Assembly (NCBI GenBank): GCA_949288855.1
Contig: CASELS010000002.1
Span: 1-64,000, forward strand
DNA from: an uncultured Collinsella sp.
GTDB taxonomy: Bacteria; Actinomycetota; Coriobacteriia; Coriobacteriales; Coriobacteriaceae
Reading direction: 5' to 3'
Length of the DNA stretch: 64,000 nt
Part shown: positions 16,247-31,396 of the stretch, piece by piece
Layout: each line of letters opens with the position of its first letter
How positions within the stretch are numbered: position 1 is the first letter of the stretch
Made by a program: the position numbers and the translations under genes
Notes under the pieces: generated by a model
Database searches by the model: none
Seen by the model: the letters and a program-made list of their open reading frames with translations, nothing else
What the model was told of the DNA's origin: nothing

Positions 16247-16681
16247 ATGTCATTCACACCGGATGTCCAGGGCGGCGCAAACAACAACGTCGACCAGACC
16301 CGCGTTTTCCGTATGCCCACCGACGATGCCACGGCGCCGGACCTCATGAAGAGCGTATCGCTCTCTCATCCCGTGCTCACCATCATCAAGGGGCCGCAGA
16401 CCGGCAACACCTTTGAGCTCGACGAGGGCGAGACCACCATCGGTCGCGACCCGGCGAATTCCATCTTCCTGAACGATATGACCGTCTCGCGTGCCCACGC
16501 CAAGATCGTCCCCGGTCCCACCGGTATGGTTATCGAGGACCTCGGCTCGCTCAACGGTACGTGGGTCGACGGCGCCATCGTGAATTCGGCGCCCTTGCAT
16601 GACGGTTCGTCTGTCCAGATCGGCACCTTCACGCTGATCTTCCACGAGACCAAGCCGGAGCGCATCGAAACGGGTGATTAA
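16247..16681 (+). CDS. FHA-domain protein, GarA/OdhI-like
   Basis: A 144-residue phosphothreonine-binding protein. The FHA domain spans residues about 43-125 with the binding residues G66-R67, S81, H84 and N103 (GSLNGTWVDG). The N-terminal tail carries DQTRVFRMP with Thr18, resembling the phosphorylated ETTSVFRAD tail of mycobacterial GarA and corynebacterial OdhI, which folds back on the FHA domain and turns these regulators of 2-oxoglutarate metabolism off. An FtsR-like MerR gene follows, as in mycobacteria (Rv1827-Rv1828). A switch role is therefore likely by analogy. A possible -10 TAGAAT lies at 16197. Confidence 0.85.
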   Translation: MSFTPDVQGGANNNVDQTRVFRMPTDDATAPDLMKSVSLSHPVLTIIKGPQTGNTFELDEGETTIGRDPANSIFLNDMTVSRAHAKIVPGPTGMVIEDLGSLNGTWVDGAIVNSAPLHDGSSVQIGTFTLIFHETKPERIETGD

Positions 16682-17654
16682 TTTGGCCGAGCGCAGCTAC
16701 CTGAGCATCGGCCAGGTCGTCAACTATCTGCGAAGCTCCTATCCCGACCTCTCCAACTCCAAGATCCGCTTTCTTGAGGACGAGGGGCTCATCACGCCGC
16801 ATCGAACCCCTAAGGGCTACCGCCAGTACTCCAAGGAGGACGTGGACCGGCTCGAGGTCATCCTGCATCTGCAGAAGACGCGCTACATGCCTCTGAACGT
16901 CATCAAGCAGCGCCTCGACAACGCCTCGGACCTCTCCACGCTCGCCTACGAGGTGGGCCTCCTTTCCGACGTGCCGCTCAAGACGGAGCCCAAGGAGACG
17001 CAGCAGAAGCTCCATCCCATCGAGGACGTTCCCGACCTTCTGGGAGTCAAGATCTCGTTTCTGCGCCAGCTTGCCGAGAACGACCTCATCAAGATCGTGC
17101 GGAGCCCCAAGAACCGCGAGCTCATCGATGGTCGCGACTTCGACATCATCCGCTATGCGTCTGAGCTCTCGCGCTTTCACATCGAGCCGAGGAACCTCCG
17201 CCAGTACGTCGTTGCCGCCAACCGTGAGTCAACCATGTTCGAGCAGGTGCTCACCGGTATGCTCGGCATGGACACCTCCGAGGGCGACCGCAACGCAAAG
17301 ATCGAGCGCGCCTTCAAGAAGCTCCACGACCTCACCGACGGCGTGCGCACGTCGCTCCTTAAGAACCGGGTCTTTGAGTCGCTGAACGCCATCGTCGAGG
17401 ATGCAGACATCGACGCCATTGACGAGCAGATCGAGCAGACGGAGGCAAAACGCGCGCGCGAGGTGGCCGAGGCCTCCGCAGAAGAAGCCTCAGCCGCCCC
17501 GGCGATCTCCGCCGGGGCTCCGGGGGAGAACACCGCCTCTGCTGACAGTGTCCGTGGCCGTGAGCCCGAGGTTCAACCCCTGCCGCTGCCCGGGCTTGAG
17601 ACCGCATCCGTAAGAACTGAGAAGAAGGCCTCCCGTCGCAAACCCAGGCCTTAG
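16674..17654 (+). CDS. MerR-family regulator, FtsR-like
   Basis: A 326-residue transcription factor. The MerR winged helix (residues about 8-78) has LSIGQVVNYLRSSYPDLSNSKIRFLEDEGLI, and residues about 112-180 form a second winged-helix-like unit (VPDLLGVKISFLRQLAENDLI), the layout described for Rv1828/FtsR rather than for metal-sensing MerR proteins. The C-terminus is a variable Ala/Glu-rich tail. The GTG start lies within the FHA gene (8-base overlap). In Corynebacterium FtsR activates ftsZ; the same role here is inference from synteny and architecture. Confidence 0.82.
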   Translation: MINLAERSYLSIGQVVNYLRSSYPDLSNSKIRFLEDEGLITPHRTPKGYRQYSKEDVDRLEVILHLQKTRYMPLNVIKQRLDNASDLSTLAYEVGLLSDVPLKTEPKETQQKLHPIEDVPDLLGVKISFLRQLAENDLIKIVRSPKNRELIDGRDFDIIRYASELSRFHIEPRNLRQYVVAANRESTMFEQVLTGMLGMDTSEGDRNAKIERAFKKLHDLTDGVRTSLLKNRVFESLNAIVEDADIDAIDEQIEQTEAKRAREVAEASAEEASAAPAISAGAPGENTASADSVRGREPEVQPLPLPGLETASVRTEKKASRRKPRP

Positions 17655-17672
17655 ACAAACGAGGGGGAATCC

Positions 17673-18206
17673 ATGACCGACCTTGATTATGATGCCTACA
17701 TCCCGTCCATTCCCGATTACCCGGAGCCCGGTGTCATCTTTAGGGATATCACACCGCTTTTTGCCAATGCCGATGTGCTTAAGGCCGCCATTGACACGAT
17801 AGCCGGCCATTTCCAGGGTCAGGGCATCACCAAGGTCGTCGGTCCCGAGGCGCGCGGGTTCCTCGTGGGCGCCCCCGTGGCCATCGCGCTCGGCGCCGGC
17901 TTCATTCCCGCGCGCAAGCCCGGCAAGCTCCCGCGCAAGACGATCTCCGAGACCTATGAGCTCGAATATGGTACCGATACGATCGAGATCCATGCCGATG
18001 CCCTCGAGCCCGGTGACAAGGTGCTGCTCGTGGACGACCTCATCGCTACCGGTGGCACCATCTGCGCCGCCGCCAAGCTCGTCGAGAAGACCGGCGCCTC
18101 CGTTGCCGGCTTTGGCTGCATCCTCGAGCTCGAATTCCTGAACCCTCGCGAGACGCTCGCCAAGCTCGGCGACTTTGATGTGTTCTCGCTTGTGAAGTCC
18201 CGTTAG
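17673..18206 (+). CDS. apt: Adenine phosphoribosyltransferase
   Basis: Salvages adenine to AMP using PRPP. The 177-residue protein has the PDYPEPGVIFRDITPLF N-terminal segment, the adenine-site region VVGPEARGFLVGAPVA, ARKPGKLPRKT, and the PRPP-binding motif VLLVDDLIATGGT. GAGGGGGA precedes the ATG. It sits 18 bases after the FtsR-like gene and works logically with the NCS2 purine permease encoded 5 kb away. Confidence 0.95.
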   Translation: MTDLDYDAYIPSIPDYPEPGVIFRDITPLFANADVLKAAIDTIAGHFQGQGITKVVGPEARGFLVGAPVAIALGAGFIPARKPGKLPRKTISETYELEYGTDTIEIHADALEPGDKVLLVDDLIATGGTICAAAKLVEKTGASVAGFGCILELEFLNPRETLAKLGDFDVFSLVKSR

Positions 18207-18259
18207 AGAACGTAAGAAAAGCTGCGCGAAACCCTCATCGTTTTGAAGGTTTTTCACAA

Positions 18260-18298
18260 TAGAGGCAGACCCTATGACAATCATGGGGCCTGCCTCTA
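18260..18298 (+). terminator. Long hairpin between apt and the NlpC/P60 gene
   Basis: A 9-bp outer stem TAGAGGCAG/CTGCCTCTA encloses a 7-bp inner stem (18270-18276 with 18282-18288, one G-T pair). There is no T run after it on the + strand (TACTTGTTAAGG), so it may be an attenuator or leader structure for the hydrolase gene, 51 bases downstream, rather than a simple terminator of apt. Confidence 0.5.
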
Positions 18299-18349
18299 TA
18301 CTTGTTAAGGCCCTGTAACACTATCATCGTACCTTCGGGGGTTTTCTTC

Positions 18350-19573
18350 ATGACCTTCCAACCACGTACCCGTCGTGCCGTGCGTTGTCTTTCTGCCCTT
18401 ACCCTTGCCGGCGTCCTTGGTCTTTCCGGTGCCGCTCCCTATATCACGCTCCAGCCGGTGAGCGCTTTCGCCGACCCTCAGTCCGAGCTCGATGCCGCCA
18501 AGGCCAAGCTTGCCGAGATTGGCGCCGAGTACCAGGCGCTCCAGACCGAGCTTCAGCAGGCGGGCGCGCAGCTCGAGGAGACGGCGTCCCAGATCGCCGA
18601 TACGCAGACCGAGCTTGCGTCTGCGCAAGCGCTTCTCTCTGAGAACGTGTCCTCCGACTACAAGAAGGGGAGTGTCAGCCTTATTGACATCCTCCTCAGC
18701 TCGCAGGATTTCACCGACCTCATCTCGCGCGTCTTCTACGTGAGCAAGGTCAATGACGCTCAGACCAACGCCATCGAGTCGGTCAAGGAGCTCCAGGTCC
18801 AGCTTCAGCAGCAGCAGACCGAGCAGCAGCAGGCGCTCTCTGACACCCAGGCAAAGGTAGACGCCCAGGCCGAGAACCAGGCGCGCGCTGCAGCGGTGGT
18901 CGACTCGCTTTCCGCTGAGGTCCAGGCCCAGATTGAGGCCGAGGCCCAGGAGGACGAGAACCTCGCTGCCGGCATGCAGTCTGCCCAGGACGCCTCCAAC
19001 GGCGCCTCCCAGGTCCCCGTCACCGGTAACCAAAACACATCCAATAACAGCGGCTCCACTTCTGGCAACAACAACCAGAGCACTAACAACCAGGGCGACA
19101 ATCAGAATCAGAACCAGCCCTCTGGCGGTGGTCAGAACACCACACCCGCCCCCGCGCCCGAACCGGAGCCTGAGCCTGAGCCCGAGACCCCCTCTACGGG
19201 CAGTGGCACCGCCACGGTCTCGACCCCCGTTGGCTATGCACTCCAGATGGCCGGTCAGCCCTATGTCAGCGGCGGCGAGAGCCTTGCTGAGGGCGGCTTC
19301 GACTGCTCTGGTCTTGTCTACTATGCCTACCAGAAGATCGGTATCACGCTGCCCCGCACCTCAGGCGGTCAGTACACCTACTTCCGCAACAACGCGGGAC
19401 GTTTCACCACCAGCGTGAGCCAGCTCCAGTACGGCGACGTTGTCTTCTTTCCCGGCCACGTTGCGTTCTACGTGGGCAACGGCCAGGTGTTTGGCGCCAC
19501 GCGCCCCGGTCAGGTAGCCGGTTACGGCAACATCGGCTGGTACGGTACCTTCCTGGGCGGCGGACAGCTCTAG
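18350..19573 (+). CDS. Secreted NlpC/P60 peptidoglycan hydrolase
   Basis: A 407-residue exported cell-wall endopeptidase. A signal peptide (RTRRAVRCLSALTLAGVLGL, cut near ...SAFA) is followed by a coiled coil over residues about 38-215, a low-complexity Asn/Gln/Ser linker with a Pro-Glu repeat (EPEPEPEPE), and a C-terminal NlpC/P60 domain. The catalytic Cys319 is in FDCSGLVYYAY and His370 in GHVAFYVG. The architecture matches RipA/PcsB-like division hydrolases whose coiled coil keeps them inactive until activated. The ATG at 18350 (GGGGGT upstream) is chosen over a longer frame because it starts the signal peptide. Confidence 0.93.
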   Translation: MTFQPRTRRAVRCLSALTLAGVLGLSGAAPYITLQPVSAFADPQSELDAAKAKLAEIGAEYQALQTELQQAGAQLEETASQIADTQTELASAQALLSENVSSDYKKGSVSLIDILLSSQDFTDLISRVFYVSKVNDAQTNAIESVKELQVQLQQQQTEQQQALSDTQAKVDAQAENQARAAAVVDSLSAEVQAQIEAEAQEDENLAAGMQSAQDASNGASQVPVTGNQNTSNNSGSTSGNNNQSTNNQGDNQNQNQPSGGGQNTTPAPAPEPEPEPEPETPSTGSGTATVSTPVGYALQMAGQPYVSGGESLAEGGFDCSGLVYYAYQKIGITLPRTSGGQYTYFRNNAGRFTTSVSQLQYGDVVFFPGHVAFYVGNGQVFGATRPGQVAGYGNIGWYGTFLGGGQL

Positions 19574-19693
19574 ATTCCAGACAGGAATTTCAGCTATTCA
19601 ATAATCTGGAAATGCTTGTCCAAATAGACGCAAATCCTGTGGTGGCAAAATCATGGGAAAACGCGAGGCTGAAACAGGGAATACGCTGGAAAC

Positions 19694-19725
19694 ATCAACT
19701 ATATTGTTGAATAGTTGATTTTTTT
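19694..19725 (+). terminator. Probable terminator after the NlpC/P60 gene
   Basis: A 9-bp, A/T-rich stem ATCAACTAT/ATAGTTGAT with an 8-base loop, followed by a run of seven T. Just after the stop codon (19574-19611) there is also a TTCCAGA/TCTGGAA inverted repeat with a wide loop. No gene is visible between 19574 and 19867. Confidence 0.65.
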
Positions 19726-19786
19726 CCTCGGTAGGTAGGACTTAATTTTCTTTGAAACGCTCGTTATCGCTAAAGAACGATTTCCA

Positions 19787-19829
19787 AAAACTAAAAGAGC
19801 AGCCCTGGAGCACAATCGCTCCAGGGCTG
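19787..19829 (-). terminator. Terminator of the DUF1836 gene
   Basis: A perfect 11-bp stem CAGCCCTGGAG/CTCCAGGGCTG with an 8-base loop (19800-19829). On the minus strand it is followed by CTCTTTTAGTTTTT. It lies 38 bases beyond the DUF1836 stop codon. Confidence 0.88.
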
Positions 19830-19867
19830 TATTGCATTCGGTCCATGTCGCAAGGCAGCATTTCTAA

Positions 19868-20491
19868 TCAGTGGTTGGATGCCTCGTCATATCCAAGAAA
19901 ATCGAGGTAACCCACGAGGTGAGCCTTGGCGGCGAAGGCGAGGACGGCGCTTCGAACGAGCAGGGACTCCCGTGTGACGCGCGAAGCGGTATCAGTCCAC
20001 TCATCATCGCCCCCGATGGAGAAGAAGTGCCTGAGGGCGCGTTCGAGCTCGGTTGCCACGTAGTCATAGGCAACATCGGTCATGTAGGTCATCTTCTGGA
20101 TACGGAAGAGATCCGAGATAGCAGAGATAGACAGAACCTGCTTAAACACGCAGATGACGAGAAGCCGAGCAATCTGTTCGCGTCCGTAAAGCTTCTTTTG
20201 AGGGGCGCTCAAGAGATGCGCCTTCACATAATTGTTCACCATGGACGGAGTGAGCCACGGGCCCTCGGAACATTCGTTCAGAGGCTCGAAAACATTCTCC
20301 ACAAGCGCGATAACCTGCTCGCGGTAGAGCTCAACCGTTGGGAGCTCGTTGTAGCGGGGGAAGTGGAAAGAGAGAATTCGCTGAGCCATAGGGGAGCGCA
20401 CAAAGTCATCCGGTAAGACGGTGGGCGCAATATCCTCCTGAGAGATGCTACTGGAGGCATCGGACATGGGAATGACCCGAGGATGCTGCAT
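19868..20491 (-). CDS. DUF1836 protein, probable MerR-fold DNA-binding protein
   Basis: A 207-residue protein of the DUF1836 family, common in Gram-positives and without known function. Residues about 80-130 (LTPSMVNNYVKAHLL, PQKKLYGREQIARLLVICVFKQVLS) follow the spacing of a MerR-type winged helix, in which a first helix-turn-helix is followed by a wing containing Lys-Lys-x-Tyr and an Arg-Glu-Gln helix. I infer DNA binding. It is divergent from degV across 127 bases that contain two spaced palindromes. The ATG at 20491 is chosen because GGGAG lies 8 bases upstream; ATG at 20467 is an alternative. Confidence 0.82.
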   Translation of the reverse strand: MQHPRVIPMSDASSSISQEDIAPTVLPDDFVRSPMAQRILSFHFPRYNELPTVELYREQVIALVENVFEPLNECSEGPWLTPSMVNNYVKAHLLSAPQKKLYGREQIARLLVICVFKQVLSISAISDLFRIQKMTYMTDVAYDYVATELERALRHFFSIGGDDEWTDTASRVTRESLLVRSAVLAFAAKAHLVGYLDFLGYDEASNH

Positions 20492-20532
20492 ATCAGACGC
20501 TCCCAACACTCGAAATCTTTTGCTCTATTAGG

Positions 20533-20551
20533 ATACTAGCACACCTAGTAT
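20533..20551. promoter_or_regulatory. Perfect spaced palindrome, candidate operator 1
   Basis: ATACTAG-5 bp-CTAGTAT, arms perfectly complementary, in the divergent DUF1836/degV intergenic region. CTATTAG, also part of the 24-bp repeat in degV, begins just upstream at about 20525. The geometry suits a dimeric regulator. No protein is known to bind it. Confidence 0.5.
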
Positions 20552-20559
20552 GAAAAACT

Positions 20560-20574
20560 AGCTATACTGTAGCT
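20560..20574. promoter_or_regulatory. Second spaced palindrome overlapping a -10-like hexamer, candidate operator 2
   Basis: AGCTA-5 bp-TAGCT, with the same 5-bp spacer as operator 1 and centred 25 bp from it. It overlaps TATACT (20563-20568), a good -10 hexamer for degV, so a bound protein would block the promoter. No convincing -35 is visible. Confidence 0.45.
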
Positions 20575-20618
20575 AACGAACATGACACGCGCTGTTGGGG
20601 CGATACGAAAGGATTGGC

Positions 20619-21467
20619 ATGAGCTGGGCGATCATCGCAGATTCGAGCTGCAATCTTAGGGACTACACACCTCAGGCTCCGGATACGCTCTATGCATACG
20701 CGCCACTCAAGATCAACGTCGGCGGCACCGAGTTTGCCGACGACGCTAATCTCGACGTAGCCGAGCTGAACCGTCTCGTAGCCGAGGAGAAGAGCGCCAG
20801 CTCGAGCGCTTGCCCCAGCGCAGGGGAGTGGGCAGAGCTGTTCCGGAGTGCGGAAAACGTCATCGCCATCACCATCTCTGCCAACCTTTCGGGCAGCTAT
20901 GAGGCAGCCTCCATGGCGCGCGACCTTGTGCAGGAGGAGGGCGGTCATCGCATCCATCTCGTAAACTCGCGCGCTGCCGGCGGCAAGCTCGAGATGCTCG
21001 TCATACTATTAGATAGGTACCTAACTGTCCATCCTGAGGCCACCTTTGCGGAGGCCTGCGCCTATATCGACGGCATCGAGCAGTGCTCCACCGTTCTGTT
21101 CTCACTCAGCAGCTACGAGAACCTTACCAAATCCGGCCGTATGCCCAAGATGGCCGGCATCCTTGCCAATAAGCTAAACATCCGCGTGCTCGGCACGGCA
21201 TCTGAAGAGGGCACCATCAAGATCGTCGCACCCACGCGCGGACAGAAGAAGATGGTCGCGAAGGTCGTTCAGTCCATGGAGGCTGACGGCTACAAGGGCG
21301 GTCTCGTATGCATGGACCATGTGGACAATGAGGCGGGCTGCCAGGAGATCGCCGCTGCCATCACCGCCAAATGGCCCGAGGCTGAGGTCATGGTCATGCC
21401 TTGCGGCGGCCTCTGCTCGTACTACGCTGAGGCAAAGGGCATCATAATCGGCTACGACTGGAAGTAA
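20619..21467 (+). CDS. DegV/FakB-family fatty-acid-binding protein
   Basis: A 282-residue DegV-fold protein. The family binds a fatty acid in a cleft and, in characterised cases (FakB), presents it to the kinase FakA for phosphorylation and use in phospholipids. ADSSCNL, the SANLSGSYEAA lipid-carboxylate motif, and the late TRGQKKM and CGGLCSYYAEAKGIIIGY segments are visible. No fakA gene is in the window. The ATG at 20619 has GAAAGGA upstream. Codons 129-136 (ATA CTA TTA GAT AGG TAC CTA ACT) are a cluster of A/T-rich rare codons unlike the rest of the gene, and match a repeat at the trxB end. Confidence 0.9.
   Translation: MSWAIIADSSCNLRDYTPQAPDTLYAYAPLKINVGGTEFADDANLDVAELNRLVAEEKSASSSACPSAGEWAELFRSAENVIAITISANLSGSYEAASMARDLVQEEGGHRIHLVNSRAAGGKLEMLVILLDRYLTVHPEATFAEACAYIDGIEQCSTVLFSLSSYENLTKSGRMPKMAGILANKLNIRVLGTASEEGTIKIVAPTRGQKKMVAKVVQSMEADGYKGGLVCMDHVDNEAGCQEIAAAITAKWPEAEVMVMPCGGLCSYYAEAKGIIIGYDWK
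21005..21028 (+). repeat. 24-bp imperfect direct repeat, copy A (inside degV)
   Basis: It matches positions 21998-22021 at 22 of 24 bases. Its core TAGGTACCTA is a perfect palindrome, and the wider 16-bp AGATAGGTACCTAACT is one mismatch from perfect. It coincides with the rare-codon cluster of degV, so the DNA sequence itself appears to be constrained. Confidence 0.6.
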
Positions 21468-21501
21468 CATCGCGCGCGAAACGTTATCGAGTTACGAGAA
21501 A

Positions 21502-21527
21502 GGGAGGGTTCTGGCCCTCCTTTTCCT
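21502..21527 (+). terminator. Terminator of degV
   Basis: Stem GGAGGG/CCCTCC with the loop TTCTGG, followed by TTTTCCTTCT, 35 bases after the degV stop codon. Confidence 0.8.
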
Positions 21528-21529
21528 TC

Positions 21530-21997
21530 TACAACTCAACTTTACATAAGATATATTATCGTGACTACAAAGCGGAATTGACTAGCCTCTGGCTAAGAAG
21601 ACATCTTGAATCGGAAACTCCGCACTCATTTGCTGATAAATCACGCTCTCAGACCCATACTCCGACTACAAGGACCGACTCATTTGTCTCGTACACACAA
21701 TTCCGCGCGCACACGAATCTTCTAACGTCACCAACCATGTCTAGCAAATCCCGTTTAAGCAAACGCGCACGCACAACTAATCTTAACGACACCGGACGGT
21801 CCGGGATTTCATTGTCGGTCGCTACAATCGATATGAATCAATCGTTTAGCAATCGGTCGTGACTGTGGATCACGGACCATCATGGCGCCTGGATGGCTGG
21901 CTACGACATTACTAGTACTCGATGCAAGTTTTATTGCACGCATAACAATACTTGAGCCAAACTCTCTCGGACGCTTGTTGCCTCACTCTTCGCATGC
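21530..21997. other. Gene-free, lower-G+C convergent intergenic region
   Basis: About 470 bases between the degV terminator and repeat copy B hold no credible gene on either strand. G+C counted on three 60-base lines is 27, 31 and 34, against clearly higher values in neighbouring genes. Short hairpins occur: AGCC/GGCT near 21583-21593; a bulged GGTCGTGA/TCACGGACC at about 21855-21879; TGCAA/TTGCA near 21923-21938; and a TACTAGTA palindrome near 21909. Convergent genes rarely have gaps this long. It may be a relic, a small-RNA locus or recombination debris; nothing decides. Confidence 0.5.
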
Positions 21998-22021
21998 ACT
22001 ATTAGTTAGCTACCTAACTGT
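21998..22021 (+). repeat. 24-bp imperfect direct repeat, copy B (abutting trxB stop)
   Basis: It matches copy A in degV at 22 of 24 bases. It contains the inverted repeat AGTTAG-CTAC-CTAACT, and its last base is part of the trxB stop codon (minus strand). The starts of copies A and B lie 993 bases apart. Confidence 0.6.
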
Positions 22022-22953
22022 TATCCTCGAAGATAATGATAAGCCGATGTTGCGGCGATAGCTCCGTCTGCGGCGGCGGTGATTACCTGACGGAGGCGCT
22101 TGGACCGAACGTCACCGGCCGCAAACAGCCCCGGCGTCTTCGTAGCCATCCCCTCATCGGTAACGACTCCCCCATCGGCGGCAATCTCGACAAGGTCGGA
22201 GAACAGCTCCACAACGGGCTTCGTACCAGCGAACACGAAGATGCCGATGCTCCCCTCTTCAAATTCCTCAGTGTATTCCTCACCCGTCTCGTTGTTGCGA
22301 AACGTCACCTGGGAAATAAAGGTGCCACCGGACACCGCGATGATTGAGCGGGAATAGGCAACGCTAACATTCGACTGCTTGAGCAGCTTGTCAACGACGC
22401 CCTGCGGCGCGCGGAACTGATCGCGTCTGACAACCATAACGACCTCGGAGGCGATTTGCGAGAGGAACAAAGCCTCCTCGCAGGCAGCATTGCCGCCACC
22501 GATCACAAACACCTTCTTGCCGCGATAGAACATACCGTCGCAGGTTGCGCAGTACGAGATGCCTCTGCCACGGAAGGTATCCTCACCGACAAAGCCGGCG
22601 GTACGAGGGACTGCGCCCGTAGCCAAGATGAGCGTCGGGGACTCATAGCTCTCTGAGCCGGACGTAAGCCGATATGCTCCAGAAGACATGCGTTCGACAG
22701 AATCGACCATTGCGTACACGGTTTCGGCTCCCGCAGCCTCGGCGTGCTCACGGAACTTGTCGCCGAGCTCGGCACCAGAGATGGAAGTGAATCCAGGATA
22801 GTTCTCGATCACATCGGTCGTGGTAATCTGGCCTCCGGGCATACCCTGTTCAAAGACGGCCGCCGTAAGTCCCGAGCGAGCCGCATATATCGCTGCGGAA
22901 TAGCCCGCAGGGCCGCCGCCGAGAATAGCAACATCGAAGGTACGCTCGCTCAT
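22021..22953 (-). CDS. trxB: Thioredoxin reductase
   Basis: NADPH-dependent flavoenzyme that reduces thioredoxin. The 310-residue protein has the FAD motif GGGPAGYSAA near the N-terminus, the redox-active C135-A-T-C138 (CATCDG), the NADPH-binding GGGNAACEEALFLS, and the C-terminal GDVRSKRLRQVITAAADG. The ATG at 22953 is preferred to a TTG six bases upstream because AAGGCGG lies 7 bases before it. No thioredoxin gene is adjacent. Its end touches repeat copy B. Confidence 0.95.
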   Translation of the reverse strand: MSERTFDVAILGGGPAGYSAAIYAARSGLTAAVFEQGMPGGQITTTDVIENYPGFTSISGAELGDKFREHAEAAGAETVYAMVDSVERMSSGAYRLTSGSESYESPTLILATGAVPRTAGFVGEDTFRGRGISYCATCDGMFYRGKKVFVIGGGNAACEEALFLSQIASEVVMVVRRDQFRAPQGVVDKLLKQSNVSVAYSRSIIAVSGGTFISQVTFRNNETGEEYTEEFEEGSIGIFVFAGTKPVVELFSDLVEIAADGGVVTDEGMATKTPGLFAAGDVRSKRLRQVITAAADGAIAATSAYHYLRG

Positions 22954-23028
22954 AATCAACCGCCTTAAGCTCAGAAGATAATCAAACCGTTATCACAAGA
23001 CATGATAGCAATGTACCCAAATAACGAA

Positions 23029-23059
23029 ACGGGCCGACCGCACATGGCGATCGGCCCGT
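23029..23059 (-). terminator. Terminator of the purine permease gene
   Basis: A 9-bp perfect stem ACGGGCCGA/TCGGCCCGT with a 13-base loop. On the minus strand it is followed by TTCGTTATTT. It lies between the permease stop and trxB. Confidence 0.7.
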
Positions 23060-23095
23060 AATTCGTTCCTAGCTGCTCAGACAGCGCAGAGCGTA

Positions 23096-24409
23096 TTAGA
23101 GGAGCAGGAAGTAGAGCAGGAACGCCGCAGCGGCGACCCACATGAGCGGACGGATCTGCTTCACCTTGCCGGTAACAATGGCAACGATGACGTAGGTGAT
23201 GAAGCCGAGACCGATACCGTTGGAGATCGAGTAGGTGAACGGGATGCCCGCGATGATCATGAACGTCGGGAAGCCCTCGAGGATGTCGGTCCAGTCGATG
23301 TCAACGACGTCGCTCATCATGAGGAAGCCGACGAAGACCAGCGCGCCGCAGGTGGCAGCGGAGGGAATGCAGCTGATGACCGGCGAAAGGAACGCAGCGA
23401 GCAGGAAGAAGATGCCCGTGACGATCGAGGTGAGGCCCGAGCGACCGCCGTCAGCGGCACCCGAAGAGGACTCGACGAAGGTGGTGATGGACGAAGCGCC
23501 GAAGAAGCCACCCACTGCAGCAGCGACGGAGTCGACGATGAGGATCGGACGAATGTCCTCAACCTTACCGTCGTCAGTCAGGAACTCGCCCTGCTTAGCA
23601 ACGGCCATGGCGGTACCCATGGTGTCGAAGAAGTCGCTCATCATGAGCGAGAAGGCGAAGAGCAGAAGCGTGGGCGTGGTGATAGCCTCGATAAGGCCCA
23701 TGGCACCGGAAGCGCTCGCCTGCATGGGGGCGCCGAAGGTGCTGAAGTCAAGCGGAGCGACAACAGCGGTCGGAATCGGCGTGACGCCCAGCGGGATACC
23801 GATGATAGCGGCGACGATGATACCCCAGAGAAGCGCGCCCTTGACGTTCATCGAATACAGCACGACCGAAAGGACGATGGAGACGACACCGACGATGAAG
23901 GCGCCGGACTGCACGTCACCGAGGGCAACCATGGTGGACTCGTTCGCAACGATGATGCCGGCGTCCTTGAGGCCGATCATGGCGATGAACAGGCCAAGAC
24001 CGATGGAGATGCCATGACGGAGCGAAACCGGAATGGCGTCCATGATAGCCTCACGCAGGCCGCAGAGAACGAGCACGAGAATCGCGATGCCCTCGATCAT
24101 GATGACGGCCATGGCGGTCTGCCAGCCGTAGCCCATCGAGCCGCAGAGGGTGTAGGCAACAATCGAGTTGATGCCCATGCCCGAGGCGCAGGCCAGCGGG
24201 CGGTTGGAGAACACGCCCATGACGATGGTCATGATGGCGGCACCGATGCAGGTGGCCGTAACGGCCGCGGTCGTGGGAATACCCGCCGCGGAAAGAATGC
24301 TCGGGTTCACCACGATGATGTACGCCATAGCCAAAAACGTGGTAAGACCGGCGCGCACCTCCGTAGCAGAGTTCGAGCCGCGCTCGGATAGCTTGAAGAA
24401 CGTATCCAT
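23096..24409 (-). CDS. NCS2-family purine permease (AzgA/PbuG type)
   Basis: A 437-residue polytopic transporter, probably of adenine, guanine or hypoxanthine. The family signatures are FFKLSERGSNSATEVRAGLTTFLAMAYI at the N-terminus, NPSILSAAG, ASGMGINSIVAYT in place of the usual GMGxNAxxAxT, and GASSITTFVESSSGAADGGRSGLTS. About 12-14 hydrophobic segments are visible. It is the last gene of an nrdR-dut-permease run. The 50-base gap upstream is too short for a purine riboswitch. Apt (17673-18206) could trap an imported base. Confidence 0.9.
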   Translation of the reverse strand: MDTFFKLSERGSNSATEVRAGLTTFLAMAYIIVVNPSILSAAGIPTTAAVTATCIGAAIMTIVMGVFSNRPLACASGMGINSIVAYTLCGSMGYGWQTAMAVIMIEGIAILVLVLCGLREAIMDAIPVSLRHGISIGLGLFIAMIGLKDAGIIVANESTMVALGDVQSGAFIVGVVSIVLSVVLYSMNVKGALLWGIIVAAIIGIPLGVTPIPTAVVAPLDFSTFGAPMQASASGAMGLIEAITTPTLLLFAFSLMMSDFFDTMGTAMAVAKQGEFLTDDGKVEDIRPILIVDSVAAAVGGFFGASSITTFVESSSGAADGGRSGLTSIVTGIFFLLAAFLSPVISCIPSAATCGALVFVGFLMMSDVVDIDWTDILEGFPTFMIIAGIPFTYSISNGIGLGFITYVIVAIVTGKVKQIRPLMWVAAAAFLLYFLLL

Positions 24410-24458
24410 CTACTCCCCTTTTCCTTCGATGTGTTCTTCCCTTATATGCTCGGATGCC

Positions 24459-24902
24459 CTACTGGGCACCGCTGGAGCCAAATCCCCCCGTACCGCGATC
24501 GGTCTCATCGAGTTCGTCGACCTCTACGAGGTTGACGACGGGGACCTCCTGGATCACGAGCTGGGCGATGCGCTCGCCGCGCTCGATCTCAATCGGGTTC
24601 TTAGAATCGAGGTTGACCACGATGATCTTGAGCTCGCCGCGATAATGGGCGTCGATGAGACCAGGCGTGTTAGCAATGGACAGGCCCCTCTTGAGAGCCA
24701 TACCGCTTCGCGGCTGTACGAAGCCGGCGTACCCGTCGGGGATAGCGATGGCAAGCCCCGTAGGAACCAGCCGACGACCCAGGGGCTCGATCACGCACGA
24801 CTCGTTGGCACGAAGATCGAGACCAGCATCCCCCGTATAGGCATACGAGGGCACCTCGACGCTCGGGTCCAAGCGCTTGATAGCAACATCGATCGTAGGC
24901 AC
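24459..24902 (-). CDS. dut: dUTP diphosphatase
   Basis: Cleaves dUTP to dUMP, keeping uracil out of DNA and feeding dTMP synthesis. The trimeric 147-residue form shows all five motifs: DAGLDLRA, PRSGMAL, GLIDAHYRGE, ERIAQLVI and the C-terminal RGTGGFGSSG that closes on the active site. It lies 4 bases downstream of nrdR, joining two deoxynucleotide-pool genes. Confidence 0.96.
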   Translation of the reverse strand: MPTIDVAIKRLDPSVEVPSYAYTGDAGLDLRANESCVIEPLGRRLVPTGLAIAIPDGYAGFVQPRSGMALKRGLSIANTPGLIDAHYRGELKIIVVNLDSKNPIEIERGERIAQLVIQEVPVVNLVEVDELDETDRGTGGFGSSGAQ

Positions 24903-24906
24903 GAAA

Positions 24907-25350
24907 TCACCTCAGCTTAGCGAGCTCGTCAACGAACTCATCGATATCCTTGAAGTCACGGTACACCGAGGCGAAGCGAATGTAGGCCACCTTATCGAGC
25001 GCCTCGAGCCGCTTCAGAACCATATCACCGATGTCGTGAGAGGTGATGGATTTAAAGGGCTTGGTGCGAAGCTCCTGCTCGATCCCATCGATCAGGTTGT
25101 TCAGCGTGGCAAGATCGATATCGCGCTTAGACGTGGCGCGCATGAGACCGACCAGCAGCTTATTCCTATCGAAGGGCTGCGTGGTGCCGTCGCTCTTTAT
25201 GACCTCAATGGGGTCCTCGCACCGCTCGAACGTTGTGAAACGGTACCCGCAAGAGCGGCACTCGCGCCTGCGCTTGATGGCATTGGAGGTCTCCTGCATA
25301 CGGGAATCGATAACTCGTGTATCGTCTGCTCCACATTTTGGACAGCGCAT
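24907..25350 (-). CDS. nrdR: Transcriptional repressor NrdR
   Basis: Represses ribonucleotide reductase genes when dATP is high. The 147-residue protein has the N-terminal zinc ribbon (MRCPKCGADDTRVIDSR then CRSCGYRFTTFE) and an ATP-cone (residues about 46-136, VIKSDGTTQPFDRNKLLVGL). Length is exactly typical. There is no nrd operon in the window, so its targets lie elsewhere. Confidence 0.97.
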   Translation of the reverse strand: MRCPKCGADDTRVIDSRMQETSNAIKRRRECRSCGYRFTTFERCEDPIEVIKSDGTTQPFDRNKLLVGLMRATSKRDIDLATLNNLIDGIEQELRTKPFKSITSHDIGDMVLKRLEALDKVAYIRFASVYRDFKDIDEFVDELAKLR

Positions 25351-25451
25351 CAGGTCTCCTCGCTCGGTGAAAACCTGTTAAGCATACCACGAGTTGTGGT
25401 GCTGACCAGAATATTTCGCATATGTTGTGAGATTGAAACCGATTCAAGGAA

Positions 25452-25479
25452 CGGACGGGGTTCAGACCCTTCCCGTCCG
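25452..25479 (-). terminator. Probable terminator of the LysM gene
   Basis: An 8-bp stem CGGACGGG/CCCGTCCG with a 12-base loop. Read on the minus strand it is followed by the modest T stretch TTCCTTG, 16 bases after the LysM gene stop. Confidence 0.6.
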
Positions 25480-25495
25480 ATGCACAAACCGCTTG

Positions 25496-25951
25496 CTATG
25501 ACTGAGAGGGGACGAGGACCGTGTCCCCCGCGATGAGCACCACCGAATCGAAGGAGTTGTAGGACTCGATAATGTCTGCAGTCTCCTGCGTGCTGAGACC
25601 CTCGATAGGATGAGACTCGGCAAGCGTCCAGAGAGAATCGCCTTCGCGGACAGACGTCTCTGCCCAAGCGACCTCAGATGCGGCTTGCGAGACAAGGTCC
25701 GCCCTGTTGGAGAACGCAGACACACCGGCGACAAAGACAATCAGGAACATGACGGCAACGCCGGCGACAGCGCAGACGCGTGCGAGGCGCGACGTGCGGG
25801 TCTCCGGACGATGGGCCACCTTGCGCTCAGGGCGAGCGTGCCCCAGCGATCCCTCGACAACAACAAAGCGAGTCTTAACATCCGCGCGACGAGCGGGCGC
25901 CCCAGAGGCGAGCGCGAGGTTACCGTAGACCATCATGTTGGAGTTCATCAT
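25496..25951 (-). CDS. LysM membrane protein, probable SOS division inhibitor (YneA/DivS-like)
   Basis: A 151-residue protein: a basic cytoplasmic N-terminus, one membrane helix at residues about 57-80, and a LysM peptidoglycan-binding domain at about 98-148 (VREGDSLWTLAE, LIAGDTVLVP). It is divergent from lexA, and an SOS box lies in its promoter spacer. This is the arrangement of B. subtilis yneA and of corynebacterial divS, SOS-induced inhibitors of septation. The function is inferred from position and architecture. The ATG at 25951 has GAAGGGA upstream; a longer frame would run into the SOS boxes. Confidence 0.82.
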   Translation of the reverse strand: MMNSNMMVYGNLALASGAPARRADVKTRFVVVEGSLGHARPERKVAHRPETRTSRLARVCAVAGVAVMFLIVFVAGVSAFSNRADLVSQAASEVAWAETSVREGDSLWTLAESHPIEGLSTQETADIIESYNSFDSVVLIAGDTVLVPSQS

Positions 25952-26020
25952 CTCTGTTCCCTTCTCCGTAGATTCGACAACATGGTTATATCGAATCGTG
26001 CGGACAAAAGACTGGCGCAA

Positions 26021-26032
26021 GAACGAGTGTTC
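26021..26032. promoter_or_regulatory. SOS box 1 (LexA operator)
   Basis: GAACGAGTGTTC, a perfect match to the Gram-positive core GAAC-N4-GTTC. First of three boxes at exact 28-bp steps between the LysM gene and lexA. Confidence 0.85.
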
Positions 26033-26039
26033 GTGTATT

Positions 26040-26067
26040 ATTATCGGCGAACAGCTGTTCCTGTCAA
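26040..26067 (-). promoter_or_regulatory. Promoter of the LysM gene
   Basis: On the minus strand TTGACA (26062-26067) and GATAAT (26040-26045) are separated by 16 bp. SOS box 2 lies wholly inside the spacer, so LexA would occlude RNA polymerase. Confidence 0.75.
26049..26060. promoter_or_regulatory. SOS box 2 (LexA operator)
   Basis: GAACAGCTGTTC, a perfect 12-bp palindrome flanked by C on the left and C on the right. It is the central box of the three. Confidence 0.9.
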
Positions 26068-26076
26068 GAGAAATTC

Positions 26077-26088
26077 GAACAGCAGTTT
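26077..26088. promoter_or_regulatory. SOS box 3 (LexA operator, one mismatch)
   Basis: GAACAGCAGTTT deviates from GAAC-N4-GTTC at the last base only. It starts 24 bases before the lexA ATG and 28 bp from box 2, consistent with autoregulation of lexA. Confidence 0.75.
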
Positions 26089-26111
26089 GTATTTTTGAGA
26101 GGACGGTCCCT

Positions 26112-26750
26112 ATGGCAAGGAAGATTACGAAGCGTCAGCAGCAGATTTACGACTTCATTCGCACCTACCAGCAGGAGAAGGGCTATCCGCCCAGCGTTCG
26201 TGAGATGGCCGCAGCGGTGGGACTCTCTTCTCCCTCGACCGTGCATGCACATCTCTCTGCCCTTGAGGCACACGGCCTTATCAAGCGCGATGCAACGAAG
26301 CCGCGTGCACTCGAGCTCTTCAATGAGGACGGTTCGTCTGTGAAGCTCGCCGAGGTAAAAGAGTCTCCCAACAGAAACACCGTCGAGCTTCCGCTCGTCG
26401 GTCGCGTTGCTGCGGGCATGCCCATCCTCGCCGAGCAGAACGTTGAGGATACCTTCACCCTCCCCACGGAGATTACGACCGATTCGTGCTCGTTTATCCT
26501 TGAGGTCCACGGTGACTCTATGATCAACGCCGGCATCTTCAACGGCGACTATCTGGTGGTCCGCGAGCAGAAGAGCGCGATGAACGGAGAGATCGTCGTT
26601 GCGATGATCGATGGCGAGGCCACGGTAAAGACCTTCTACAAAGAGCGCGGTCGCGTCAGGCTTCAGCCGGAAAACGATGCGATGGAGCCCATCTACGCCG
26701 AGAATCCGACCATCCTCGGTAAAGTTGTGGCCCTGATGAGGCGCTTCTAA
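26112..26750 (+). CDS. lexA: SOS repressor LexA
   Basis: Represses DNA-damage genes and cleaves itself when activated by RecA filaments. The 212-residue protein has an N-terminal winged helix (residues about 4-65, KRQQQIYDFI then PSVREMAAAVGLSSPSTVHAHL), the cleavage site Ala101-Gly102 in VAAGMP, the catalytic Ser136 (GDSM) and Lys173 (EATVKTF). The ATG at 26112 has GAGAGGA upstream. The divergent LysM gene and three SOS boxes upstream complete a classical SOS locus. Confidence 0.97.
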   Translation: MARKITKRQQQIYDFIRTYQQEKGYPPSVREMAAAVGLSSPSTVHAHLSALEAHGLIKRDATKPRALELFNEDGSSVKLAEVKESPNRNTVELPLVGRVAAGMPILAEQNVEDTFTLPTEITTDSCSFILEVHGDSMINAGIFNGDYLVVREQKSAMNGEIVVAMIDGEATVKTFYKERGRVRLQPENDAMEPIYAENPTILGKVVALMRRF

Positions 26751-26752
26751 GC

Positions 26753-27469
26753 ATGCCGGAGAGACTCCGAGCCGTCCGGGAACGCATCACCCTGTTCGAT
26801 ACGCTTCGCGGGTTCACCATCATCTCGATGGTCGTCTTCCATGCTTGCTATGACCTTGCCTATATTGAGGGCGTTCCCCTGTCATGGTTCACGGGGACGC
26901 CCTTTCAGGCTTTCTGGCGATGCTCCATCAGCTGGACCTTTCTGTTTATCGCAGGTTGGATGGCATCGTTCTCACGCAACAACCTCAGACGTGGAGGCAT
27001 ATACGCCGCCGCTGCAGCAATTGTCTTTATCGCCACCACCCTGGTGAGCATAGACACGCCTGTGAGCTTTGGAATCTTGTTCTGCATGGCGGCATGTACG
27101 TTGCTGGTCGCGCTAACCATACCGGTGCTCCGGAATGTGCCCGCGCCAGTGGGATTTATCGGCTCACTGCTGCTCTTCGCTCTTACCTACACCATCCCGC
27201 TTGGTCGCTACGAAATTGCGGGGCTCGCTTGGCTGGGCTTTCCCGGGCCCGCCTTTGTCTCGGGGGATTACTATCCCCTTCTCCCCTACCTCTTCATGTA
27301 TCTCGCTGGCTTCTTCGCATCGGTGATAGTCGATGGCATCACCAGAGGGGACTATCCGGCATGGACAAAGCGCGACTGGTGCCCGCCCCTTACCGCTGTC
27401 GGTCACGCCAGCCTCGTCATCTATCTGTTGCACCAACCTCTGCTGTTGGCGCTTATTGAATTGCTGTAA
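26753..27469 (+). CDS. DUF1624 / HGSNAT-like multipass membrane protein
   Basis: A 238-residue protein with about seven hydrophobic segments. The opening RITLFDTLRGFTIISMVVFHACYDLAY and the later GHASLVIYLLHQP are the signature of the heparan-alpha-glucosaminide N-acetyltransferase catalytic family (DUF1624), related to membrane acyltransferases. The His of VVFHACYD is in the usual catalytic region. It starts 2 bases after lexA and may be co-transcribed with it. The acceptor of any acyl group is unknown. Confidence 0.8.
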   Translation: MPERLRAVRERITLFDTLRGFTIISMVVFHACYDLAYIEGVPLSWFTGTPFQAFWRCSISWTFLFIAGWMASFSRNNLRRGGIYAAAAAIVFIATTLVSIDTPVSFGILFCMAACTLLVALTIPVLRNVPAPVGFIGSLLLFALTYTIPLGRYEIAGLAWLGFPGPAFVSGDYYPLLPYLFMYLAGFFASVIVDGITRGDYPAWTKRDWCPPLTAVGHASLVIYLLHQPLLLALIELL

Positions 27470-27492
27470 CGATTACGCCACGGAACCCGAAA

Positions 27493-28788
27493 TTAATTTG
27501 CTTTAGATCCAAAGGGCTCGAGGATGCCACCAAGACGCGGGCCAACCTTGGCAACCACATGGACGCCGTTTTCATCGAACTCTTCAACGAGTACCTGCCC
27601 CTGTTCGTGAATCGCCTTGAGCAGGGCGCCCTCTCGATATGGCAGGACCACATCGACGATGGCATCGAGCCGCGCGGCTTCGACAGAGAGCCGATCGACG
27701 AGCGCGTCCAAACCTTCGCCGGTATAGGCAGAACAGAGCACCGCTTCCGGGAAGCGAAGTGAGAGCGCCCGCCTGTCCTCATCGCCCAGCAAATCGCATT
27801 TATTGAACACGACGACCGCCGGCGTATCGCCCGCACCGATCTCCTCGAGAACCCGGTCCACCGCCTCCAGATGGCGCTCGAAGTCATCGTCGGAGGCATC
27901 CACCACCTTCAAGATAAGGTCGGCGTCACGTGCCTCGGCGAGCGTAGATTTAAAGGCCTCCACCAGTCCATGCGGGAGCTTCTGGATAAACCCGACAGTG
28001 TCGGTGATGGTGAGCTCTCGTCCACCGGGAAGCCGATAGGCCCTCGTTGTGGGGTCAAGCGTGGCAAAGAGCTTGTCCTGCGCAAGAACCGCAGAACCGG
28101 TGAGCTTGTTAAGCAGCGAGGATTTCCCGGCGTTGGTATAGCCGGCAAGCGCCACGCGAAACGAATTTGAGGAGACACGGCTCTTAGCCTGCACGTCACG
28201 CCTGCGCTCGAGCTCCTTAAGCTCACGGCGAAGCGAAGCGATGCGGTTGCGAATCAGGCGGCGGTCGACCTCAAGCTGACTTTCGCCCTGACCGAAACGG
28301 CTGCCGATACCACCTCTGGTCTGCTCCTTAGCAAGATGGCTCCACATGCCGCGCAGACGTGGCAGCAGATACTGCAGCTGGGCAAGTTGTACCTGAAGGC
28401 GTCCTTCGCGCGTTGTCGCATGAAGGCCGAAGATGTCGAGAATGAGCGCGGTGCGGTCGATGATCTTAACCGGTTCGCCGACGGCGCGCTCGAGGTTTGA
28501 CTGTTGCGAGGGTGTGAGGTCGTCGTCGAAGATAACGACGTCTGCATCGATGCGGCGGACAAGGCTGCAGAGCTCATCGACTTTTCCGGATCCGATATAC
28601 GTTCGAGGATTCGGGCGGTCGAGGCGCTGCGATATGCGCGCAACCGTCTCGGCCCCTGCCGTGTCGGCCAAACGCTCGAGCTCGTCGAGCGACCTCTCGA
28701 CAGGCCATCCGCCAGGTCTGCCCTCTACGCCCACGAGCACCGCTCGCTCGGGCACCGGCGCAGTGGAAACGAGAGGAAAGCGCGCCAT
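27493..28788 (-). CDS. hflX: GTPase HflX
   Basis: Ribosome-splitting GTPase that rescues or recycles 70S ribosomes under stress. The 431-residue protein has the N-terminal HflX domain with NPRTYIGSGKVDEL, a coiled linker (DRRLIRNRIASLRRELKELERRR), and a G domain with the P-loop GYTNAGKSS, DTVGFIQKLPHGLV and NKCD. The ATG at 28788 begins one base after the miaA stop; longer frames would overlap miaA. The order miaB-miaA-hflX is common in bacteria. Confidence 0.95.
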   Translation of the reverse strand: MARFPLVSTAPVPERAVLVGVEGRPGGWPVERSLDELERLADTAGAETVARISQRLDRPNPRTYIGSGKVDELCSLVRRIDADVVIFDDDLTPSQQSNLERAVGEPVKIIDRTALILDIFGLHATTREGRLQVQLAQLQYLLPRLRGMWSHLAKEQTRGGIGSRFGQGESQLEVDRRLIRNRIASLRRELKELERRRDVQAKSRVSSNSFRVALAGYTNAGKSSLLNKLTGSAVLAQDKLFATLDPTTRAYRLPGGRELTITDTVGFIQKLPHGLVEAFKSTLAEARDADLILKVVDASDDDFERHLEAVDRVLEEIGAGDTPAVVVFNKCDLLGDEDRRALSLRFPEAVLCSAYTGEGLDALVDRLSVEAARLDAIVDVVLPYREGALLKAIHEQGQVLVEEFDENGVHVVAKVGPRLGGILEPFGSKAN

Positions 28789-28789
28789 G

Positions 28790-29707
28790 TTACAGTCCCT
28801 CCCTCTCCCGAATGAGCGCGATGGCGCCATCGACCCCGGTCTCGTCCATATCGATCCAAAAGATACGGTTATCACGCTTGAACCAACTGAGCTGCCGCTT
28901 GGCGTAACGGCGGGAGCGCATCTTGATGAGATCAACTGCCTCAGCAAGCGATAACGCCCCCTCGAGATAATCGATGATCTCTTTGTAGCCGATAGCCTGC
29001 CGCGAGGTGAGGGCGGACGACAGACCTTGGTCAACCAGCCCCTTCACCTCATCAATCAAGCCCATCTCCATCATGTGGTCGACGCGCTCGTTGATGCGCT
29101 CGTAGAGCACCGCGCGGTCGCAGGTAAGACCATACTGGGAAGACCGGTAGTGCGCGCGGTTCTCGGAGAAACCGGCGCGCTGCTCCGCATAGGACACGCC
29201 CTCGTCGCTCATCTCCAGCGCCCGGACCACGCGGCGCGTGTTGTGGGGATGGATGGCCTCGGCGCTCGCGGGGTCACGCTCGGCAAGCAGGGCGTGAAGC
29301 GCGTCCGCCCCGATACGCTCAAGAAGCTCCTCGTAGCGGGAGCGAGAAGAGCTTTCAAGCTCACCCGAGGGGAAGTCGAACTCGTCGATCACCGCGCGCA
29401 CGTAGAGACCTGTGCCGCCGCACAGAACGGCAGGATGACCGGAGGCATTGATCTTGTCGATAGCAGCGCGCGCATCACGCTGAAACAGTGCGGCGGAATA
29501 CGCTGTACCGGGATCGGCCACGTTTACCATCAAAAGCGGCGCGTGGCACTCACCAGGGCTCATCTTGGCCGTACCGATATCCATACCGCGGTACACCTGC
29601 ATCGAATCGGCAGAGATGACCGAGGTGCCTATCGCCGCAGCAAGACCGTCTGCCACCGCGCTCTTACCGACGGCTGTGGGGCCCACAACGGCGACGACGT
29701 CGATCAT
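28790..29707 (-). CDS. miaA: tRNA dimethylallyltransferase MiaA
   Basis: Adds an isopentenyl group to A37 of tRNAs that read UNN codons, giving i6A37. The 305-residue protein has the P-loop GPTAVGKSA, the DSMQVYRGMDIGTAKM substrate motif, HHNTRRV in the form HPHNTRRVVRALE, and the late RRYAKRQLSWFKRD segment. The start overlaps the miaB stop (ATGA), so the two enzymes that act in sequence on the same base are translationally coupled. Confidence 0.96.
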   Translation of the reverse strand: MIDVVAVVGPTAVGKSAVADGLAAAIGTSVISADSMQVYRGMDIGTAKMSPGECHAPLLMVNVADPGTAYSAALFQRDARAAIDKINASGHPAVLCGGTGLYVRAVIDEFDFPSGELESSSRSRYEELLERIGADALHALLAERDPASAEAIHPHNTRRVVRALEMSDEGVSYAEQRAGFSENRAHYRSSQYGLTCDRAVLYERINERVDHMMEMGLIDEVKGLVDQGLSSALTSRQAIGYKEIIDYLEGALSLAEAVDLIKMRSRRYAKRQLSWFKRDNRIFWIDMDETGVDGAIALIREREGL

Positions 29708-31077
29708 CGCGGATCGCCGACAACGGTGCCGGAGAGATACCAGGTGCGCGCCACGTCGATATCGACGTCGACGATCTTGCCGATCAGCGAGGCGGGATCG
29801 ACCCCCTCGGGTACCGGCGCATGGACGGTCTGGTTCATGGGGCTCTTGCCCTGGAGGCGATGAGAGTCCTTCTTGGACACGCCCTCAACAAGAACCGGCA
29901 CACGGGCCCCGAGCTCATGCTGGTTATAGTCGTACGCCGTGCCCTCGATAACCTTGACCAGACGGTCGAAGCGCTCCTGTATTACCTCGCGCGGCGTGTC
30001 GTCGGGAATCTCTGCCGCAGGCGTGCCGGCGCGGCGCGAATAAATGAACGTAAACGCCTGGGAGAAACGCGCCTCCTCGGCGAGACTCAGCGTCTGGGCG
30101 AAGTCCTCCTCGGTCTCGCCGGGGAACCCGACGATGATATCGGTCGTGAGGGCGATGTGGGGGATGCGCTCGCGCACACGCTCAACAAGGTCGAGGTAAT
30201 ACTCGCGCGTGTAACGGCGATTCATGAGCTTCAAGATGCGCGAGGAGCCCGACTGGACCGCCAGATGGAGGTGCGGCATGACCTGGGGCACCTCGGCAAG
30301 CGCGTCGATGGTCTCGGGCAGGAGGTCCTTGGGATGCGAAGAGGTGAACCGGATGCGCTCAATGCCCGTCTCCCCCACCGCGCGGAGAAGCTCCGCGAAG
30401 CGCGGGTTCCCGTACCGGTCGCGACCGTAGGAGTTGACGTTCTGACCCAAGAGGGTGACCTCGCGCACAGCGGTGCGGGAAAGACCCTCGACCTCGTCGA
30501 CAATCTCCTCAAAAAGACGGCTCCGCTCGCGCCCGCGGACGTACGGCACGATGCAGTAGCTGCAAAAGTTGTTGCAGCCCGTCATGATGGGCACCCAAGC
30601 GTGGTACCCCGTCGCACGGTGCCAGGGAAGTGAGGTAGCCACATCGTCTGGATTCTCGCTGGTAAGCACGTGCCTGCCGCCCTCGGCAAACGTGGCGTTG
30701 AGAAGCTCAGCAAGATGGGTGATGGCGGACGTGCCAAAGACCACATCTACGTTATCGAGCGTATCGAGCAGGCGCTCGCCATCACGCTGGGCGATGCAGC
30801 CGCCGATAGCGATGACGCGCCTTCCCGAAGGTGCGTCCGGCAGGCTCTTCATGGACGAGCACTGGCCGTACAGGCGCTGATCTGCCGCCTCGCGCACGCA
30901 GCACGTCATGAAGATGACGATATTGGCCTCCTCCGGCGAGGATGCCTCAAGGCATCCGCAGGAGTCGAGCAGGCCGCTCACGCGCTCGGCGTCATGCAGG
31001 TTCATCTGGCAGCCGAAGGTGCGGATGAAGTACGTCTTCTGGACGAGAGACGGGTAGGAAAGGGACATATCGGCCAT
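29704..31077 (-). CDS. miaB: tRNA-2-methylthio-N6-dimethylallyladenosine synthase MiaB
   Basis: Radical-SAM methylthiotransferase that converts i6A37 to ms2i6A37. The 457-residue protein has the N-terminal MTTase domain (TFGCQMNLHD; cysteines in MTCCVREAAD and GGCIAQRDG), the radical-SAM cluster motif CNNFCSYCIVPYVRGRERSR, and a C-terminal TRAM domain ending near VDVDIDVARTWYLSG. The ATG at 31077 lies one base after the spoVS stop. A second in-frame ATG is three codons later. Confidence 0.96.
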   Translation of the reverse strand: MADMSLSYPSLVQKTYFIRTFGCQMNLHDAERVSGLLDSCGCLEASSPEEANIVIFMTCCVREAADQRLYGQCSSMKSLPDAPSGRRVIAIGGCIAQRDGERLLDTLDNVDVVFGTSAITHLAELLNATFAEGGRHVLTSENPDDVATSLPWHRATGYHAWVPIMTGCNNFCSYCIVPYVRGRERSRLFEEIVDEVEGLSRTAVREVTLLGQNVNSYGRDRYGNPRFAELLRAVGETGIERIRFTSSHPKDLLPETIDALAEVPQVMPHLHLAVQSGSSRILKLMNRRYTREYYLDLVERVRERIPHIALTTDIIVGFPGETEEDFAQTLSLAEEARFSQAFTFIYSRRAGTPAAEIPDDTPREVIQERFDRLVKVIEGTAYDYNQHELGARVPVLVEGVSKKDSHRLQGKSPMNQTVHAPVPEGVDPASLIGKIVDVDIDVARTWYLSGTVVGDPR

Positions 31078-31078
31078 A

Positions 31079-31396
31079 TCACGCCACCGTTTGCGAGTCT
31101 TGGGTCTCGATGATATCGGACCCCTGGAGAGAGATCTGGTGCACGTAGACGGACAGGCGGATCGCCGTGCGCGACTCACCGTTGATAAGGATGTCGGAGA
31201 ACACGGGGGCGCAGGAGATGTCAAACCCGGTGGGAATCAGAAAGCCACGGGCGATTGCCATAGCCTTGATCGCCTGGTTGACCGCGCCGGCGCCGACGCA
31301 CTGGAGGTTAACCGGAACGCCGTCCTTGACCATGCCGGCGATGGCTCCCGCAACCGAGGCGGGCGAAGACTTGCTCGATACTTTCAGGTAATCCAT
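31079..31396 (-). CDS. spoVS: SpoVS-family protein
   Basis: A 105-residue Alba-like protein. The core KVSSKSSPASVAGAIAG and GAGAVNQAIKAMAIARGFL is strongly diagnostic of SpoVS, named for a spore-coat and septation role in B. subtilis but also present in non-sporulating bacteria, where it may bind RNA or DNA. A variable C-terminal tail makes it about 20 residues longer than the Bacillus protein. Its place between a GHKL ATPase/RNase Y pair and miaB suggests an RNA-linked role, by inference. A -10-like TACTAT (minus) lies 20 bases upstream. Confidence 0.9.
   Translation of the reverse strand: MDYLKVSSKSSPASVAGAIAGMVKDGVPVNLQCVGAGAVNQAIKAMAIARGFLIPTGFDISCAPVFSDILINGESRTAIRLSVYVHQISLQGSDIIETQDSQTVA

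Follow-up and report, generated by a model that had tools for sequence, protein, structure and literature searches.

Known landmark sites on bacterial chromosomes generally mark either the origin side, such as parS and ram, or the terminus, such as matS and dif. The matS sites occur in many copies over hundreds of kb and are known only from Ter, and the ram sites are known only from the origin region. Here, one palindrome marks both sides of the chromosome. It was reached from a 24-bp direct repeat in a 64,000-nucleotide stretch of DNA from an uncultured Collinsella sp. (this whole stretch is called the window). As far as sequence comparison can tell, the repeat is probably a pair of sites for one putative dimeric protein that marks dif and parABS in the Coriobacteriaceae. 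The open-access PMC literature yielded neither a site or protein common to origin and terminus nor work on dif or par in Collinsella. The genome collections compared hold one genome per species, and the names Coriobacteriaceae and Atopobiaceae-type (the second family, f5) rest on few named records and on gene content.

Copies A (21005-21028, -) and B (21998-22021, -) are identical at 22 of 24 bases and lie 993 bp apart, as the initial annotation of the window had described, and the near-palindromic core that it had seen in both copies is also present, as AGATAGGTACCTAACT in A (21011-21026) and AGTTAGCTACCTAACT in B (22004-22019). These are near-perfect versions of a 16-bp palindrome, AGTTAGGTACCTAACT, which forms the core of the repeat; the most conserved core of the dyad is AGGTACCT, and its central GGTACC is the best-kept part. 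Copy A lies within degV (DegV family, PF02645, 20613-21467, +), in the codons for L-L-D-R-Y-L-T. Copy B does adjoin the gene for a trxB-like thioredoxin reductase (Pyr_redox_2 family, 22021-22959, -), but it starts just 3' of the stop codon and not at the stop, where it had been placed. A CTATTAG near 20525, which had been regarded as related, is a lone 7-mer at which the weight matrix gives no match. In the 1.96-Mb genome, searched with up to three mismatches, there is one further copy besides A and B (G000:C8:2913-2936), and the control pattern read backwards gave 0 matches. The palindrome AGTTAGGTACCTAACT is perfect in this third copy, and the repeat thus represents a rare type of site with dyad symmetry.

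Between the two copies, in the intergenic region of the convergent degV and trxB, lies the site of XerCD chromosome-dimer resolution, dif (AGTCACGATAATATATCTTATGTAAAGT, 21539-21566, -), which the initial annotation had overlooked, together with the origin copies described below. This site is 28 bp long with both the XerC and the XerD arm, and nothing else in the window comes close to it in similarity to the dif of Bacillus subtilis; it is also the best match to that of Escherichia coli. A dif suggested for Frankia alni, CACGCCGATAATGCACATTATGTCAAGT, resembles it (PMC3025954). The dif core GATAATNNNNNTTATGT was found in 218 of the 249 genomes of the order, usually as a single copy per genome, and the reversed control was near zero. 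In the single-contig genomes it lies nearly opposite oriC, about 45-49% of the way round the chromosome from dnaA (1.04 of 2.31 Mb in G014 and 1.23 of 2.46 Mb in G052). Because dif is situated between A and B (534 and 459 bp from centre to centre, respectively) and nearly opposite dnaA in these genomes, we take the window to contain the replication terminus, with dif flanked by the repeat. A weak sign change of the GC skew near dif in the window was not taken as evidence for the terminus. The palindrome itself is not a Xer site and falls outside the 28-bp dif. In addition, the analysis supplies a well-supported dif for the order. The terminus neighbourhood in the window (16674-31224), with genes for a MerR-type regulator, trxB, dut, nrdR, lexA, hflX, miaA and miaB, is broadly conserved around dif in two families.

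The degV site is spelled TTA GAT AGG TAC CTA, in rare codons that are conserved, and the trxB site, which in other genomes lies inside the gene, falls on V-R-Y-L-T and is spelled GTT AGG TAC CTA ACT. Where the residue is the same, codon identity over LDRYL of degV was 0.86-0.87 in 11 divergent genomes that have the site, the highest of 190 windows, whereas the gene averages 0.43; over the trxB site it was 0.81 in 14 divergent genomes from two families, the highest of 203 windows, with 0.38 for the gene. Some of the excess is built in because the genomes were picked for having the motif. The informative part of this test is therefore the other spelling in site-less relatives and the recurrence of the site's spelling in two families. 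Relatives that lack the degV site (G014, G028, G029, G041 and G058) have CGC or CGG and CTC, CTG or CTT at these residues, and site-less members of f5 also spell the same trxB residues otherwise. Since ordinary codons serve for the same residues in these relatives, the DNA itself is selected, and the suspicion first raised by the rare codons in degV, that not just the protein is constrained, is borne out. The palindrome is strong enough to dictate codon choice in two unrelated genes. Ordinary codons at the degV site of relatives had been named in advance as an argument against this constraint; such relatives do exist, but several of them carry the palindrome in trxB, across dif, instead. A trxB site without a clear degV site is found in G014, G029, G039, G041 and G052. 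The site shifts between degV and trxB by lineage and stays near dif, which fits a role at the level of the locus and not that of a promoter.

The third copy is found beside the partition genes. On C8, where the gene order is yidC-jag-rsmG-parA-parB, the perfect palindrome stands in the yidC-jag intergenic region, directly ahead of the ribosome-binding site of jag, and a weaker copy, AGTAAGGCACCTAACA, is present at C8:6515-6530, 3' of parB. The origin copies bracket parS-parA-parB in the way that A and B bracket dif. In a weight-matrix scan of 15-20 kb origin loci of the window's family, the jag-side site was found in 13 of 13 and the parB-side site as well in 8. A 16-bp palindrome near oriC and parAB recalls parS; it does not match TGTTTCACGTGAAACA, however, and three perfect copies of that canonical parS are located elsewhere in the same genome (C8, at 4434, 4481 and 4528), so a diverged parS is ruled out. 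A parS-like sequence, TGTTTCACGTGAAGCG, is found roughly 30 bp away from the parB-side motif (G000:C8 6562-6577), with a similar site in several genomes of the genus. The first 0.8 kb or so of the same contig contains an ORF out of keeping with its surroundings (G000:C8 201-839), possibly a contig-end assembly chimaera.

Two sites that flank dif opposite oriC might be expected of a polar replication-fork barrier at the terminus, that is, a functional analogue of RTP-Ter or Tus-Ter. Such a barrier is improbable here, since the near-perfect palindrome shows no clear polarity, A and B are repeated in the same orientation and not inverted as opposed polar sites would be, and copies flank parABS near oriC too. 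The common direction of A and B in the window also counts against the preferred reading, a site pair for a dimeric protein, being unlike a simple mirror-image bracket.

A search of relatives for the motif, with its copies and contexts, had been proposed with the initial annotation. With up to two mismatches the palindrome is present in 57 of the 67 genomes of the family, as a rule in 2-4 copies and mostly beside dif or the origin, and the pattern read backwards almost always gave 0. Among the 101 matches listed, 51 are less than 600 bp from dif and 22 less than 8 kb from an origin marker that is known. A further 23 come from genomes for which no origin marker was available, and 18 of these have exactly the sequence that precedes jag in their genus. 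The other 5 were counted elsewhere (two of them in G042 and one each in G030, G034 and G044). The G044 match belongs to a dif locus split between two contigs. The G042 pair (L137, G042:C8 9300-10610) lies in separate repeats of about 60 bp with GTTACC...GGTAAC stems, which contain the motif-like AGTTAGGYACCTAATT and flank an ORF of 361 aa; these resemble a dispersed hairpin repeat more than an origin or terminus site.

Most genomes that seemed empty were found by the weight-matrix scan to have degenerate or variant sites. In genus g2, for example, the palindrome before jag has compensating changes (TGTAAGGTACCTTACA), and AGGTACCT sites occur at 0.55-0.87 kb from dif. The dif-side sites stand about 0.3-1.1 kb from dif (0.3-0.7 kb in most genomes), on one or both sides. 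Furthermore, AGGTACCT occurs 20 times in the 57.6 kb that lie within 1.2 kb of dif and 4 times in the other 453 kb of the dif loci, a 39-fold enrichment (p = 7e-16, a value that overstates independence because the genomes are related). Since no clear site was seen in the dif regions of G028 and G036, and that of G058 has just a degenerate one, not every genome needs the dif-side site. In G028 (L188, G028:C9, 5185-10891) trxB is about 4 kb from dif and no AGGTACCT site is left near dif, a loss which is consistent with a site that depends on nearness to dif.

An integrase attachment core, as the initial annotation had considered, or the scar of a mobile element would also give a direct repeat, here 993 bp apart. 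However, nothing but the 3' half of degV, dif and intergenic DNA is found between A and B, with no element, and there is no insertion at the sites; each chromosome has several conserved copies, in two of its regions and at the same places throughout the family. Moreover, a search of IMG/VR with a 17-mer gave 3 matches, which is about the chance level, and a viral origin of the motif was rejected on this ground. The attachment-core explanation is close to refuted by the family-wide distribution.

In f5, the palindrome was found with up to two mismatches in 5 of 63 genomes (G116, G149, G202, G214 and G226), with exactly one copy each, all inside trxB and 385-485 bp from dif; no origin copy was found in these five, and most f5 genomes have neither a dif-side nor an origin site. 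When 257 Gb of GTDB contigs were searched with a 20-base extended pattern, AGTTAGGTACCTAACTARTA, it occurred in four places only, namely in Olsenella massiliensis, two Collinsella and one Acholeplasma. In other families, no equivalent palindrome of different sequence common to dif and the origin was found.

A 16-bp dyad is typical of the operators of ordinary transcription factors, and such a factor might control the jag-par operon, degV and trxB. The jag copy is just upstream of the start codon, directly next to the Shine-Dalgarno sequence, and might control jag, but it alone is near a gene start; the others lie mid-gene in degV or trxB, or behind trxB or parB. In addition, the copies migrate between degV and trxB among genera and keep their 0.3-0.7 kb distance from dif in most genomes, and the f5 carriers have a copy inside trxB only, so an ordinary operator is rather unlikely. 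The proposal of sites for a locus-specific regulator was right in that the repeat looks like the site of a dimeric protein, but the same palindrome is found about half a chromosome away beside parABS. Alternatively, the palindrome might act in RNA, as a hairpin in the leader of jag and in the degV, trxB and parB transcripts. All four copies are in or next to transcribed sequence, the palindrome can fold, and g2 shows paired changes. In such a hairpin, however, the best-kept centre GGTACC would fall in or at the loop, widespread copies that break the stem (AGATAGGTACCTAACT in degV and AGTTAGGTACCAAACT in trxB) are still conserved, and the tight linkage to dif would be left unexplained, which makes an RNA element very improbable.

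The dyad with its conserved centre occurs in both orientations, in and between genes, and it is tied to two chromosomal machines and not to promoters, from which we infer a site for a protein dimer with a locus-level role. The sites would be targets of one dimeric DNA-binding protein, with AGTTAGGTACCTAACT as its candidate dyad. The putative protein would mark dif at the terminus and, from a site directly before jag and usually a second one 3' of parB, parABS at the origin, and its binding would organise or position these regions rather than regulate the transcription of degV, trxB or jag. It might bridge the flanking pairs into small loops (about 1 kb at dif and about 3.6 kb at par), or both regions might be tethered at the pole or the division site. 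A bolder proposal, held tentatively and at somewhat less than an even chance, is an undescribed segregation system of the Coriobacteriales in which one sequence-specific dimeric protein on parABS and dif couples or positions origin and terminus by way of a shared recognition site. A single 16-bp probe would offer direct access to a putative chromosome-organising protein in Actinobacteria that are common in the human gut and whose chromosome segregation has received little study.

As for the binder, the initial annotation had named the DUF1836 protein (PF08876), whose gene adjoins the site (19868-20509, -), but this candidate is disfavoured and the gene is not needed for the motif to be present. 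Presence and absence of the two disagree in nine genomes, six having the motif without DUF1836 (G029, G030, G031, G042, G052 and G202) and three having DUF1836 without a motif match at up to two mismatches (G010, G012 and G036). The gene adjoins dif in most of the family, and other families have DUF1836, but not beside dif. No solved relative of DUF1836 was found by sequence, and no function for it in the open-access PMC literature. A second ParB or Noc was also rejected; each of 30 genomes has one full-length ParB, extra matches were partial and patchy, and no second full-length chromosomal ParB-like protein common to the motif carriers was found. Near dif in f5, no genes that track the motif were found.

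Among known systems, dif/XerCD is close in that the repeats bracket the chromosome's own dif, but the palindrome is a separate site from that of Xer. Like matS, which has a dedicated DNA-binding protein, MatP, in the enterobacterial Ter macrodomain, the sites are short palindromes in the dif region; unlike matS, they number one or two within about 1 kb of dif and are not restricted to Ter, being also found between yidC and jag and 3' of parB. With parS/ParB and NBS/Noc they share a 16-bp palindrome, low copy number, nearness to the origin and tolerance inside genes; however, the sequence is not that of parS, the palindrome brackets parABS and also dif, and a second ParB-like protein, as for Noc sites, is not encoded in the 30 genomes. 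RacA/ram of Bacillus subtilis would be similar in having a small DNA-binding protein that marks a region for positioning, but ram is known only from the origin region, whereas the palindrome is also present at dif.
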